From Solirubrobacteraceae bacterium (GTDB lineage: Bacteria; Actinomycetota; Thermoleophilia; Solirubrobacterales; Solirubrobacteraceae): a DNA stretch of 10,561 nt. The position numbers and the translations under genes were made by a program. Position 1 is the first letter of the stretch; every line of letters begins with the position of its first letter. The notes under the pieces were generated by a model. It saw only the letters and a list, made by a program, of their open reading frames with translations, searched no databases and had not been told where the DNA came from. Positions 6,195 through 10,032 of this stretch are shown here, in pieces. The stretch lies in the NCBI GenBank assembly GCA_030043235.1, contig JASHYF010000475.1, positions 1 through 10,561 of the forward strand, given 5' to 3'.

Positions 6195-6479
6195 ACCCAG
6201 CCTCCCTGCGGCGCACGAGTATGACGCGCTGAGAGCGCCGCTGCGCGGACGATAGTCCGACTCGGGACCATTGGCGATGTCTTTGCGAAGGTGATCGCGG
6301 GCGAGCATCGCCAAGCGCCGGCGTGTTTGCGGAACTTCCCGGAACCACCCCAGCGCAATGAAAAGCGAGACACCGTGTTGGCGGGCATGTCTGTCAGCGT
6401 GCGCGCCAAAGCCGCCGCCCGCGGCGCCTGCCGGACGCGCCGATCGGACAGCCCCTGGAAGATCACCGACCCCGTCATT

Positions 6480-6554
6480 GGAACCTCATGCGCCTTGTTT
6501 ACCTGGAACCTCATGCGCCTTGTTTACCTGGAGCCTCATGCGCCTTGTTTACCC
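6480..6554. repeat. Three tandem 25-bp repeats
   Basis: Three head-to-tail 25-base units start at 6480, 6505 and 6530. Units 1 and 2 are identical (ggaacctcatgcgc followed by cttgtttacct); unit 3 differs at two positions (gga-g-cct, and a final c). The core is CATGCGCCTTGTTTACC. There are no spacers, so this is not a CRISPR. Multiple terminal repeats of an IS21-like or similar element, or an iterated protein-binding site, are the main possibilities. Confidence 0.9.
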
Positions 6555-7176: not shown

Positions 7177-7347
7177 TCAGACTTGGGTGCGGACGTTCTC
7201 GGCGAACCGCTTGCGGGCGGCCTGACGAGAGACGCCGGGCGCGATGCCGATCTCTCCCCATGACCGGCCGTTGACGCGTGCTCGGGCGACCAGCTCGCGG
7301 ACGCGAGCCTCGCCGGCGCGCACGCTGTCTACGGCCTCTGTCAACAC
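7177..7347 (-). CDS. Small helix-turn-helix protein
   Basis: 56 residues from a GTG at 7347, preceded on the minus strand by GGGAG at a spacing of 5 bases. A longer reading through the upstream repeat would need a TTG and would translate the palindrome, so it is less likely. The sequence EARVRELVARARVNGRSWGEIGIAPGVSRQAARKRF is a sigma-factor/Trp-repressor-like HTH: 'SWgEIG' is the first helix and 'GVSRQAARKRF' the recognition helix. A Pro in the turn (IAPGVS, where Leu is common) could weaken the fold. No other domain is present. It may be a free-standing small DNA-binding protein or the surviving end of a larger gene. It ends 236 bases or more from its nearest intact minus-strand neighbour and is not in an operon. 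Confidence 0.5.
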   Translation of the reverse strand: MLTEAVDSVRAGEARVRELVARARVNGRSWGEIGIAPGVSRQAARKRFAENVRTQV

Positions 7348-7348
7348 C

Positions 7349-7397
7349 GAGGCTCCCAGCCGGAAGCCCTCTTGCCCGCCCCGCACCGGTGCGGGGC
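7349..7397. repeat. Dispersed 49-bp repeat with perfect palindrome, copy 2
   Basis: It matches 740-788 at 47 of 49 positions. Here the palindrome is extended to 26 bases (7375-7400) because CCCG- and -CGGG flank the 18-base core CCCGCACCGGTGCGGG plus C/G. Read on the minus strand, the element ends one base before the GTG of the small HTH gene and supplies its GGGAG ribosome-binding site, so it forms that gene's leader. Confidence 0.75.
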
Positions 7398-7565
7398 GGG
7401 CCGCCAATCACGGAGCGTTCTCCTCGGTTGGGTCGAGCGACTGCTGCTCATGCTCGTGGCCAGGGTGGGTCGTGTGTTGGGAATCGGTCATCACGCCAGG
7501 ATGGGCGGGACTCGCCGTACGCGAAATCGATGGCGATGAGAAGCACTCTCAGGCGCCGGGCAAGC

Positions 7566-7610: not shown

Positions 7611-8057
7611 ATGTCGACGGCAAGCGCATCGGAGTGGGCGGAGCATGCCCGCGCCGTGATGGACCAGGCTGGGCACCGCAAGGGAGGGGCGCGGAATGCG
7701 ATCATCGACCTGCTGGCTGAGCAGCCCTGCGCTCTCAGTGCGATCGAGATCGAAGACCATCTGCGGCGAAGCGATCGCTCGGCCTCGCGCGCGAGCATCT
7801 ATCGCATCCTCGAGTTGCTTCAGGACCGAGGCCTGGTCGTCCGTCTGGACGTCGGAGACGCTTCATCGCGATACGAGCTGATCGATCCAGGTGGCGAGCA
7901 CCACCATCATCTGCTCTGCGAGTCGTGTGGACGCCTGGTGCCCTTCGATGACGCCGGCCTCGAGCGCTCGATCGATCGCGTCTCGCGTCGCATGGGGTTT
8001 CGCACGCACGGCCACGAGGTCGTCCTGAGGGGCGACTGCGTGGCCTGCCAGCACTGA
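7611..8057 (+). CDS. zur: Zinc-uptake (Zur)-type regulator of the Fur family
   Basis: 148 residues, normal for the Fur family. The N-terminal winged helix (about 20-85) includes GARNAIIDLLAEQPCALSAIEIEDHL and SRASIYRILELLQDRGLV, the usual recognition region. The dimerisation/metal domain has the HHHH cluster (97-100), CESC (C103, C106) and a C-terminal CVAC (C143, C146), the paired CxxC motifs that hold structural zinc; H133/H135 lie between them. Placed directly before a Zn/Mn ABC uptake system in the same direction, it most likely represses that system when metal is replete. Fur, Mur or PerR function cannot be excluded from sequence alone; the gene context favours Zur. The ATG at 7611 may be leaderless; a downstream in-frame ATG (residue 17) is an alternative. 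Confidence 0.85.
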   Translation: MSTASASEWAEHARAVMDQAGHRKGGARNAIIDLLAEQPCALSAIEIEDHLRRSDRSASRASIYRILELLQDRGLVVRLDVGDASSRYELIDPGGEHHHHLLCESCGRLVPFDDAGLERSIDRVSRRMGFRTHGHEVVLRGDCVACQH

Positions 8058-8085
8058 GCAGGAATAGGACTCAGTATTGTGTTAT

Positions 8086-8121
8086 GGTCTCCCGGCCGGC
8101 TGCTGCCGGCCGCGCGAGACC
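8086..8121 (+). promoter_or_regulatory. Strong hairpin in the 5' leader of the metal-uptake operon
   Basis: GGTCTC (8086-8091) pairs with GAGACC (8116-8121), and CGGCCGGC (8093-8100) pairs with GCCGGCCG (8105-8112) around a TGCT loop, with a small CGC bulge. It sits between an AT-richer stretch (8063-8085, with -10-like TATTGT and TATGGT hexamers) and the start codon at 8150. No T-tract follows, so it is not a clear terminator. It could stabilise the transcript or act as an attenuator-like structure. A Zur box is expected near here, but I could not identify a convincing one. Confidence 0.5.
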
Positions 8122-8149
8122 CCGCTCATATCGATCTGGAGATTGCCCC

Positions 8150-9115
8150 ATGCACACGGTCTTCAAGCGTCTTGCCGACCTGCGTCCCCGCCCTGCGCTC
8201 GTCGCGGCGACGGCCGCCCTGGTTCTGCTCGCGGCGGGATGCGGCAGCAGCTCCTCGCCTACCTCGGCCACCGCGGCGTCTTCGGGCAGCCCGATCGTGG
8301 CGGTTGGCGCGGAGAACGAGTACGCGAACGTGATCGAACAGATCGGCGGCAAGTACGTGAAGGTCACCGCGATCGAGAGCAACCCGAACACCGACCCCCA
8401 CACCTTCGAGGCCAGCCCCAGCGTCGCCCAGGCGGTCAGCGCGGCCAGCCTGATCATCGAAAACGGGGTCGGCTACGACACCTACATGGCAAAGATCGAG
8501 GCCGCGTCGCCGAGCTCCTCGCGCAAGGTCATCGACGTCCAGAAGCTCCTCGGTCTCTCTGAATCCACCCCGAACCCGCACCTCTGGTACAAACCGACCA
8601 CGATGCCGGCGGTCGCGAGCGCGCTGGTCGCGGACCTGTCGGCGCTGCGGCCCGCCGGTGCCGCGTACTTCCGGGCGAACGCCGCGAAGTTCGATGCGTC
8701 GCTGGGGCCGTGGCTGGCGGCCATCGCGCACTTCAAGACCAACTATCCGAACACCCCGGTGGCGACGACCGAGCCGGTGGCCGACTACATGCTCGAAGCC
8801 GCCGGCGCCAAGAACATGACGCCGTTCCCCCTGCAGGCGGACATCATGAACGGAACGGATCCCTCGCCCCAGGACGTGACCTTGCAGAACGGGCTGTTCT
8901 CCGGCCACGAGGTGAGGGTGTTCGTCCACAACCAGCAGGTGACGGACTCGCTGACCGAAAGCTTCGTCGCCGCGGCCAAGCGCGAGGGGATCCCCGTGGT
9001 CGGGGTCTACGAGACGATGCCGGCCCCCGGGTACGACTACCAGTCCTGGATGCTCGCCGAGGTCAAGGGGCTGGAAGAAGCCGTCGCGCACCACCGCTCG
9101 CTGGAAAAGCTGTGA
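8150..9115 (+). CDS. znuA: Zn/Mn-type ABC transporter substrate-binding lipoprotein
   Basis: 321 residues from the ATG at 8150, with GGAG about 9 bases upstream; reading from 8084 would put the hairpin inside the gene and delay the signal peptide. Residues 1-31 are a lipoprotein signal ending in the lipobox LLAAGC (Cys31), followed by a Ser/Thr/Ala-rich linker. The cluster A-I (ZnuA/PsaA) motifs follow: DPHTFE (His84), a long alpha-helix from about 88, NPHLWY (His144), TEPVADYM (Glu208) and VYETMPAPGYDY (Glu288). The third ligand position holds Glu, as in Mn-type PsaA/MntC, rather than the His of many ZnuA proteins, and the usual His-rich loop is absent. It should capture metal outside the membrane and pass it to the permease. 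Zn is favoured by the adjacent zur; Mn remains possible. Confidence 0.88.
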   Translation: MHTVFKRLADLRPRPALVAATAALVLLAAGCGSSSSPTSATAASSGSPIVAVGAENEYANVIEQIGGKYVKVTAIESNPNTDPHTFEASPSVAQAVSAASLIIENGVGYDTYMAKIEAASPSSSRKVIDVQKLLGLSESTPNPHLWYKPTTMPAVASALVADLSALRPAGAAYFRANAAKFDASLGPWLAAIAHFKTNYPNTPVATTEPVADYMLEAAGAKNMTPFPLQADIMNGTDPSPQDVTLQNGLFSGHEVRVFVHNQQVTDSLTESFVAAAKREGIPVVGVYETMPAPGYDYQSWMLAEVKGLEEAVAHHRSLEKL

Positions 9116-9120
9116 GAACG

Positions 9121-10032
9121 ATGGAGAGACAGGTGAGCGCGGACATCCTCGAGGTGCAGGGCCTCGACGTGCGGCTGGGCGGGCGCAAGATCCTCGACCA
9201 GGTGAGCTTCACGATCGCGCCCGGCCAGTTCACCGGCCTGATCGGCTCGAACGGCGCGGGCAAGACGACCCTCTTCCGGGTGATCCTCGGGTCGCAGGCT
9301 CCAAGCGCCGGGCGGGTGGTCTTTGGTCCCACCCACCCTCCAACCCTCCCGCGCGCCCACCGGTCGAAGATCGGGGGCACACGGCCCGATCCAGCGCTGC
9401 GCGCTGTGTGCCCGCCGGGTCGGCATGACCGGCTGATCGGATACGTGCCCCAGAAGTTCCTGCTGGAGGCGGATCTGCCGCTGCGAGCACGCGACCTCGT
9501 GGGACTCGGCCTCGACGGGCAGCGCCTCGGCATCTCGTGGCCTTCGCGCAAGCGTCGTGCCCTGGTCGAGGAGATGCTCGAGGCGCTCGACGCGAGGAGC
9601 TTTGCGGACACACGCGTGGGCCGGCTCTCCGGCGGCGAGCAGCAGCGAATCCTGATCGCCCACGCCCTGATCGCGCGGCCCGGGCTGCTGCTGCTGGACG
9701 AGCCGCTGGCGAACCTCGATTTGCGAAGCGCGCACGAGGTCGTCGCGCTGCTCGCTCGCATCGCACGCGAGCAGGAGATCGCCGTCCTGATCTCCGCACA
9801 CGAGATCAACCCGCTCGTCGGGGTCATGGACCACGTCGTCTACCTGGCCCACGGGCGTGCCGTCAGCGGCACGACAGAGGAGGTGGTGCGCGCCGACGTG
9901 CTGAGCGCGCTCTACGGATACCACGTCGACGTGCTGGACGTCCATGGCCGCGTCCTCGTGGTCGCGGGCGCCGGCGATCACACCGACCTCGCCGGTCACG
10001 AGGGAAGCTTCCCGGGGGTGCTGGCCTCGTGA
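9121..10032 (+). CDS. znuC: Zn/Mn-type ABC transporter ATP-binding protein with in-frame insertion
   Basis: 303 residues, about 30 or more longer than expected for this type. Walker A is GSNGAGKT (42-49), the Q-loop Gln is in YVPQK (111), the signature is LSGGEQQR (169-176), Walker B is LLLLDEP (189-195), and the H-loop is His227. All catalytic elements are present. A foreign-looking stretch, residues ~70-100 (rich in Pro, Arg, His), separates the VVFG strand from LIGYVPQ. It corresponds to a 93-base insertion described separately. It starts 5 bases after the binding-protein stop. The ATG at 9121 lacks a strong site; a GTG at 9133 has GGAGAG just upstream and is a good alternative start. The stop overlaps the permease start by 4 bases. 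It should power metal import if the insertion is tolerated. Confidence 0.9.
   Translation: MERQVSADILEVQGLDVRLGGRKILDQVSFTIAPGQFTGLIGSNGAGKTTLFRVILGSQAPSAGRVVFGPTHPPTLPRAHRSKIGGTRPDPALRAVCPPGRHDRLIGYVPQKFLLEADLPLRARDLVGLGLDGQRLGISWPSRKRRALVEEMLEALDARSFADTRVGRLSGGEQQRILIAHALIARPGLLLLDEPLANLDLRSAHEVVALLARIAREQEIAVLISAHEINPLVGVMDHVVYLAHGRAVSGTTEEVVRADVLSALYGYHVDVLDVHGRVLVVAGAGDHTDLAGHEGSFPGVLAS
9325..9417 (+). repeat. 93-bp in-frame insertion between GGTC direct repeats, with hairpin
   Basis: GGTC occurs at 9325-9328 and again at 9418-9421, exactly 93 bases (31 codons) apart in the same codon phase. Deleting one interval leaves VVFG-RHDRLIGYVPQ, an ordinary ABC ATPase sequence. The insert's left half is C-rich (cccacccaccctccaaccct). 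Its right half forms a hairpin: GGGCACA (9375-9381) pairs with TGTGCCC (9407-9413), and CAGCGC (9392-9397) pairs with GCGCTG (9401-9406). This resembles an in-frame palindromic element with a 4-base target duplication, although terminal inverted repeats are not evident. Confidence 0.6.

Follow-up and report, generated by a model that had tools for sequence, protein, structure and literature searches.

A short palindromic element in frame in a znuC-like gene, with copies in unrelated genes of one Solirubrobacteraceae genus

The znuC-like gene and the extent of its insert

The window, meaning the whole 10,561-nucleotide stretch of DNA that was analyzed, is contig C188 of a Solirubrobacteraceae assembly (G000) that spans 2.67 Mb and is 59% complete. 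NCBI taxonomy places the Solirubrobacterales within the Actinomycetota, and the GC content of the window is 65.5%. On its plus strand, genes for a Fur-family regulator (7611..8057; PF01475, E 2.2e-24) and a znuA-like substrate-binding protein (8084..9115; PF01297, E 1.8e-41) are clustered with a gene for a 303-amino-acid znuC-like metal ABC transporter ATPase (9121..10032; PF00005, E 2.4e-27). The last of these is the host of the element described here.

A first-pass annotation of the DNA had proposed that 9325..9421 is a precise 93-bp insert flanked by GGTC. Copies of GGTC are indeed present at 9325-9328 and 9418-9421, with a spacing of 93 nt that keeps them in one codon phase. The stretch is also open in the reading frame, and it contains the two-part stem that was reported, with 7 bp (GGGCACA/TGTGCCC) and 6 bp (CAGCGC/GCGCTG). 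However, an identical in-phase copy 60 to 120 nt downstream was found for 204 of the 908 four-mers of the znuC-like gene, and GGTC occurs 66 times on the plus strand of the window. Because such in-phase copies are common in the gene, the GGTC flanks are meaningless, and we rejected them as a target duplication in favor of chance recurrence.

A 97-nt unit was also rejected. When the stretch was compared with its own genome by BLAST, other copies were found, and they match only its 3' half. Positions 9373-9421 are 90% identical to a copy in dxs (contig C339; E 1.6e-12) and 9372-9421 are 86% identical to a sequence on C467 (E 2.4e-10), with weaker matches on C351 and C447. The repeated part therefore starts only at 9372/9373, and there was no strong match to the 5' part (9321-9372) in the fetched loci, which cover part of the genome. 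Two insert-free homologues (P0017 and P0087) read GGPTHP where the window has GPTHPPTLPRAHRS. This indicates that 9325..9372 on the plus strand is a native, length-variable loop that was wrongly counted in the insert.

For homologue comparisons, we used the best 120 listed of 7,291 proteins, minus the window's own, which left 119. Walker A and IGYVPQ are 32 to 67 amino acids apart in the 114 of these that could be measured and 62 apart in the window. Removing 93 bp would leave only 31, below this range, which argues against a precise 93-bp insert. The element peptides were absent from all 119 of these homologues, and P0002 to P0004, which are up to 89% identical over the alignment, are without the element. 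Six relatives also lack the insert, of which five belong to the same genus and the other to the family. The net difference at znuC is +78 nt, a figure that includes native loop variation. Thus, insert-free orthologous ATPases exist. We found neither of the two patterns that had been named beforehand as counting against an insert, which were a conserved segment of similar length in all distant orthologues, or the lack of both another genomic copy and an insert-free orthologue. The annotation was partly supported, being correct about the kind of element and mistaken about its extent.

The natural variability of this loop might suggest that the ZnuC segment reflects nothing more than variation in loop length, or drift of a low-complexity protein stretch, with no mobile DNA involved. 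Besides the absence of the peptides from the listed homologues, that explanation has to contend with the occurrence of the same DNA in unrelated genes, where it is found on either strand and in all six frames, and with hairpin pairs that covary (see below). We find it scarcely credible, and in our view the copies in dxs, gcvT, ribD, hisZ, and other genes already refute it.

As shared with the dxs copy in a 53-nt alignment, the element occupies 9373..9425 and encodes ATPase residues ~85 to 101 (GGTRPDPALRAVCPPGR). It is assigned to the minus strand, which is the strand with the GNA triloop, and covariance model R1 (see below) matched it at 9373-9418 (53.6 bits, E 2.7e-8). In plus-strand terms, the outer arm GGGCACA (9375..9381) pairs with TGTGCCC (9407..9413), which on the minus strand is the conserved GGGCACA arm. 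The inner hairpin, CAGCGC-TGC-GCGCTG (9392..9406), has a 6-bp stem formed by CAGCGC (9392-9397) and GCGCTG (9401-9406), and its minus strand reads CAGCGC-GCA-GCGCTG. The hairpin foot on the minus strand (9388..9391) is GATC in this copy. The 97 nt alone folded no better than shuffled sequences (z −0.34). This single-copy fold is not significant, and the evidence for a hairpin is covariation between copies.

The annotation had placed the insert between Walker A and the Q-loop and suggested that the protein may tolerate it there. Placement in a tolerant loop was supported. AlphaFold2 predicted a low-confidence loop, with residues 75-103 lying between two strands at a pLDDT of <50 and most of the core higher, although the models were of modest quality (mean pLDDT of 73.2 for the best and 39.5 for the worst of five). 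For ribD, residues 243-267 had a predicted pLDDT of <50, again with higher values over most of the core (best mean, 79.3). In the two proteins examined, these models suggest that the inserts sit in a loop or at the surface.

Copies, hairpin covariation, and distribution

Copies were sought with a duplicated-copy query, with patterns, and with R1, a covariance model made from 13 copies. R1 had 35 hits in six species, all of one genus: 12 in the window's own genome (G000), nine in G019, eight in G007, three in G023, two in G005, and one in G013. Some of the hits that score under ~30 bits may have arisen by chance. G002, a seventh species of the genus, has one weak hit (E 0.022) that was excluded from the 35. 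The core of the element is GGGGCACA, followed by a 6-bp stem with mostly a GNA triloop and then by GGTC(GG). Element lengths are 27 nt on C447, 42 nt net in gcvT and ribD, and 53 nt for the part common to znuC and dxs. A second outer arm is present in some copies (znuC, dxs, and gcvT), and most of the 13 seed copies are without a clear one. The gcvT copy is an inverted repeat from end to end (GGGGCAC...GTGCCCC). The core is stop-free in all six frames and has no TA at its ends. Among 28 cores, GTAG was absent from both strands and CGTC occurred away from the foot in three. Copies are able to expand. The folC copy (L004 236-342, on C351 of G000) contains 5.9 tandem 18-nt units in frame, and the hairpin is doubled in the lhr copy.

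The covariation sample was 34 of the 35 genus hits, with L188 excluded for an indel. Across these copies, 95.1% of stem cells are paired, and all six pairs are changed on both sides in some copy. There were 17 double-change cells, compared with a shuffle mean of 2.2 (none of 500 shuffles was as high) and at most six for slid structures. A first count on 28 copies, which excluded eight weaker genus hits and included one G103 copy, had given 97.6% paired and 11 double-change cells. The 13 seed copies gave 100% paired and three double-change cells. Of the 34 copies, 30 have GGTC (GACC on the opposite strand) as the foot, and none has GTAG or CGTC there. A GNA loop is present in 29 of them, not in all. 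GNA-type DNA triloops are unusually stable. The seeds had already passed a filter for hairpin-like text and the model contains the hairpin, which biases both the hits and the pair counts toward a hairpin. We regard the covariation as supportive of the hairpin and not as independent of model building.

In the family as a whole, R1 matched 12 of 146 genomes at an E value of ≤0.05. Six of these are beyond the main carriers and have one hit each: G002 and five genomes of other genera, of which only G103 is strong. A survey of the class matched 7 of 399 genomes at an E value of ≤0.001, with more than one hit in this genus only; G005 and G007 are not among the genomes of that survey listed with a match. 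Hits in G222 and G252 were rejected because they resemble each other and look like one ordinary sequence. The single G103 hit (L163; E 1.8e-5) is in frame in nadA, and its stem (CCGCCC/GGGCGG) has paired changes. NadA of G103 is nine residues longer than the distant enzyme in PDB 4hhe, and an insertion there is possible.

The exact pattern GGGCACACAGCSCGNAGSGCTGGRTC was found at six places in genome_contigs, from which the window's own genome was possibly left out, and all are in Solirubrobacterales/Solirubrobacteraceae assemblies. These assemblies are palsa_609, palsa_744, and Chersky.18_22, which are the carriers G005, G007, and G019. Because differently named isolates carry the element, a single-assembly artefact is unlikely. 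A looser pattern, CAGCSCGNAGSGCTGG, occurred in 64 of the 146 family genomes, mostly as background comparable to a reversed control, and 7 of 17 fetched places had the arm and foot of the element. There were no matches to the full pattern in viral_contigs. One viral match to a shorter pattern was judged to be chance, with the foot absent and the stem mismatched, and a virus as the vector was rejected. Rfam gave no match at gathering scores in eight sources, so no insertion in known structured RNAs was seen.

A FastTree phylogeny of the dxs, gcvT, and hisZ proteins covered 23 of the 24 genus genomes and has several weak nodes. The carriers are scattered on it. G007 (eight hits) is beside G008 (none) with a support of 0.999, G019 (nine hits) is near G009 and G012 (none), and G000 (12 hits) is near G011 (none; weakly placed). 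Several hit-free genomes are >90% complete, and incomplete assemblies can hide copies. Among the carriers in which the gene was found, the dxs, gcvT, and hisZ insertions are not shared (no gcvT was found in G000). This distribution looks like repeated gain, with some copies being old. A maximum of 12 copies, in these incomplete assemblies, is few for a REP.

Host genes and insert-free sites

We scanned 28 ORFs of the 35 hits with Pfam, including that of the window and with frames chosen by GC3. Twenty-six match a Pfam family and two match none. In 24 cases, the hit is inside the ORF of a recognized gene, either deep in the chain or no earlier than the first domain. Four of the 24 are in C-terminal tails (a gltB end, pspA, a response regulator, and recA). 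Several of the 24, namely those in gltB, a glycosyltransferase gene, and recA, are weak hits (24 to 34 bits). Two others precede the domain near the ORF start (ylxR and an aminotransferase gene) and may be upstream of the gene. Seven hits were outside the scan, four of them intergenic by inspection and three ambiguous. Host genes include dxs, lhr, ribD, folC, gcvT, a squalene-hopene cyclase gene, menB, hisZ, rimP, sucD, and meaB, as well as gltB, which is found on two contigs that perhaps represent one gene. All six reading frames are used among the in-gene copies, which yield peptides such as TQPxGLG, AHSPxGWVG, and GHTAxxAGS from one strand and DPALRAVCP, PTQPSGLCA, and RPSPPGCVP from the other. 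Because the element is read in six frames, protein sequence is hardly the thing that is conserved.

Net insertions in multiples of three are expected in intact genes. For RibD, 114 of the 119 listed homologues (of 2,759) are without exactly 14 amino acids (42 nt). Among the remaining five, two are without 15 amino acids, one without 12, and one without 19, and P0124 has a related peptide. The gcvT gene of G007 has a net +42 nt that is absent in 20 of the 20 readable genomes among 21 others that matched (DNA compared in seven). Its hisZ gene has a net +24 nt, absent in 20 of 21 readable others (DNA compared in nine). At the dxs site, the linkers in the other genomes that could be read are different, vary in length, and are mostly shorter. 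In comparison with PDB structures, MenB has an additional 17 amino acids (2iex) and GltB about 22 (7mfm).

P0124 is the RibD protein of another member of the Solirubrobacteraceae. It is 72% identical and has GHRGTRSEGPGRS at the same ribD site. A single stem pair that changed from A-T to G-C, with the hairpin kept, would most simply account for its Q-to-R and L-to-P changes taken together. In G016, hisZ (L251) has, at the G007 insertion site, a decayed sequence that resembles the element and may reflect shared ancestry or a hot spot. The ribD and hisZ sites may hold old or repeated insertions. A paired change that keeps the hairpin might also be expected of a functional signal under selection, such as a protein-binding, uptake, or segregation site, and not of a parasite; the strong conservation of GGGGCACA and GGTC would agree with that. 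However, there are only 1 to 12 hits per carrier genome, none was found in several near relatives, and the sequence arises by insertion and not by substitution. We consider a functional signal very unlikely.

On C447 (L005 1451-1690), the element is within a different GC-rich repeat that is present three times and is itself a hairpin with a GGA loop (GCCGGCC-GGA-GGCCGGC). Two of the three copies read GGCC-GGAGGC-CGGC; in the remaining copy, 27 nt replace the central six (net +21). There is no target duplication at this site in comparison with the two empty copies on the same contig. None was seen at hisZ or gcvT either, but protein identity to the orthologues reaches only 84% for hisZ and 77% for gcvT, so small duplications could be missed. 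Some target bases were apparently lost at these sites. This bears on whether the element is a MITE. Such an element would derive from a DDE transposon by deletion, would end in terminal inverted repeats, and would duplicate a target sequence of fixed length. Dispersal and patchiness fit a MITE, as do the end-to-end inverted repeats of some copies, including that in gcvT. However, target bases that seem to be lost instead of duplicated, and seed copies that mostly lack a clear second outer arm, make a MITE origin improbable.

The C447 insertion inside another palindrome also fits a different explanation, which is template switching from hairpin to hairpin during replication. The polymerase would hop between single-stranded palindromes, with no dedicated enzyme. 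Growth of the folC copy into tandem units and doubling of the hairpin in lhr could arise in the same way. Even so, most hits are coding, where an unsystematic look noticed no host hairpin, and a trans-acting factor is suggested by species with 8 to 12 hits whose near relatives have none. Template switching is a live rival, albeit one that we think unlikely.

Relation to known elements and possible movement

We are confident that 9373-9425 is one copy of a dispersed, nonautonomous, REP/RPE-like palindromic element, and we are surer still that it is a dispersed palindromic element inserted in frame. The first-pass annotation had suggested an element analogous to Rickettsia palindromic elements (RPEs) in an actinobacterium, and the copies in unrelated genes and the insert-free orthologues bear this out. 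In passages of PMC2229807, PMC10969869, and PMC3767692, RPEs (ten families) and the WPEs of Wolbachia are likewise dispersed palindromes in frame in conserved protein genes, at solvent-exposed places. Predicted models of znuC and ribD suggest surface or loop insertion here too. Passages of PMC10969869 describe one conserved peptide per RPE, whereas six frames are used here. RPEs are also longer (~100 to 150 bp, compared with about 27 to 53 nt), and their host is an intracellular alphaproteobacterium, unlike the present GC-rich actinobacterium. This comparison is by published description. We know of no mobilizing enzyme for RPEs in general, nor of how they move. Passages of PMC3733652 give no known mobilizing enzyme for RPE-4 and RPE-6, which are of the CGTC type.

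GTAG and CGTC REPs share with the element a short hairpin, a conserved unpaired tetranucleotide at one foot, and some intragenic copies. The CGTC class is without a dedicated transposase (passages of PMC3733652), and none was found with the element. The GTAG foot of the REP/RAYT system is in none of the 34 copies, and a RAYT (Y1_Tnp) gene flanked by the repeat was not found in the carriers, several of which are incomplete. CGTC REPs are described in PMC3733652 as having an 8- to 9-bp stem, a 4- to 5-nt loop, and a CGTC foot, compared with 6 bp, 3 nt, and (mostly) GGTC here; the element also differs in being mostly inside genes instead of downstream of them. The phyla named in passages of PMC3733652 do not include the Actinobacteria, and the word is absent from its main text. 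Passages of that paper do report REP-like repeats without a tag in M. tuberculosis, which means that short actinobacterial palindromes are no novelty in themselves. According to passages of PMC2229807 and PMC10969869, bacterial MITEs (RUP, NEMIS/Correia, and ERIC) are similarly nonautonomous, dispersed, and palindromic, and they can be fused to reading frames. They are longer, and they contrast with an element that has no detected target duplication and no TA at its core ends. The element appears to work like an RPE and look like a REP, and to depart from RPEs in length and peptide and from both REP classes in tag and stem.

IS200/RAYT enzymes were considered as the mobilizer. Y1_Tnp was found in 1 of 24 genus genomes. 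There was one full and one partial match, neither beside the element within the stretch fetched. The only full match is in G007 (L156 1486-3311, on contig C232), and the element is absent from the stretch fetched around it. Beside this match is a divergent 461-amino-acid ORF that is TnpB-like by eye. G019, which is 95% complete and has nine hits, has no Y1_Tnp match.

We propose, at somewhat less than even odds, movement as single-stranded DNA by an enzyme acting in trans. The element would be recognized as a folded single strand, as the compensatory changes and the loop type suggest; recognition of a folded strand would be expected to leave such changes. A candidate enzyme supplied in trans would then copy and paste the element, which would insert without a detected target duplication while a few target bases are lost. 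Most insertions would be purged, and the survivors would be those in loops or tails with a frame-keeping length. It is conceivable, and we put it forward with reserve, that GGTC-footed elements form a third REP-like class, in which GNA-triloop single-stranded DNA hairpins spread through a GC-rich actinobacterial genus by means of an enzyme other than Y1/RAYT and give conserved metabolic proteins stop-free peptides in any of the six frames. The annotation had also called the element selfish. Dispersal, patchiness, and six-frame use suggest a selfish nature.

Rickettsia and Wolbachia are the main bacteria in which in-frame palindromic insertion is known (passages of PMC3767692 and PMC10969869), and intragenic REPs occur in some other bacteria (passages of PMC3733652). 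Among the open-access papers listed in our searches, mostly as titles and abstracts, there was no description of this element and none of in-frame insertion on such a scale in actinobacteria. If the GGTC-footed reading is true, in-frame protein remodeling by palindromes is not peculiar to reduced intracellular genomes. A genus in which a short element varies little, with 0 to 12 hits per species and several clear empty sites, is a new system in which to study palindromic insertion. Presence or absence in strains could reveal how targets are chosen, as well as the polarity and rate of insertion, and RibD, HisZ, GcvT, and MenB proteins that carry the insert could be assayed alongside natural orthologues that lack it.

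The window has other repeats. A 57-nt repeat at 735-791 and 7344-7400 is 91% identical between its two copies and contains the palindrome GCCCCGCACCGGTGCGGGGC. It had no further copy among the loci fetched, which are part of the genome, and it is perhaps a second palindromic repeat family. At 6479-6553, a 25-nt unit is present in three tandem copies with 98% matches.
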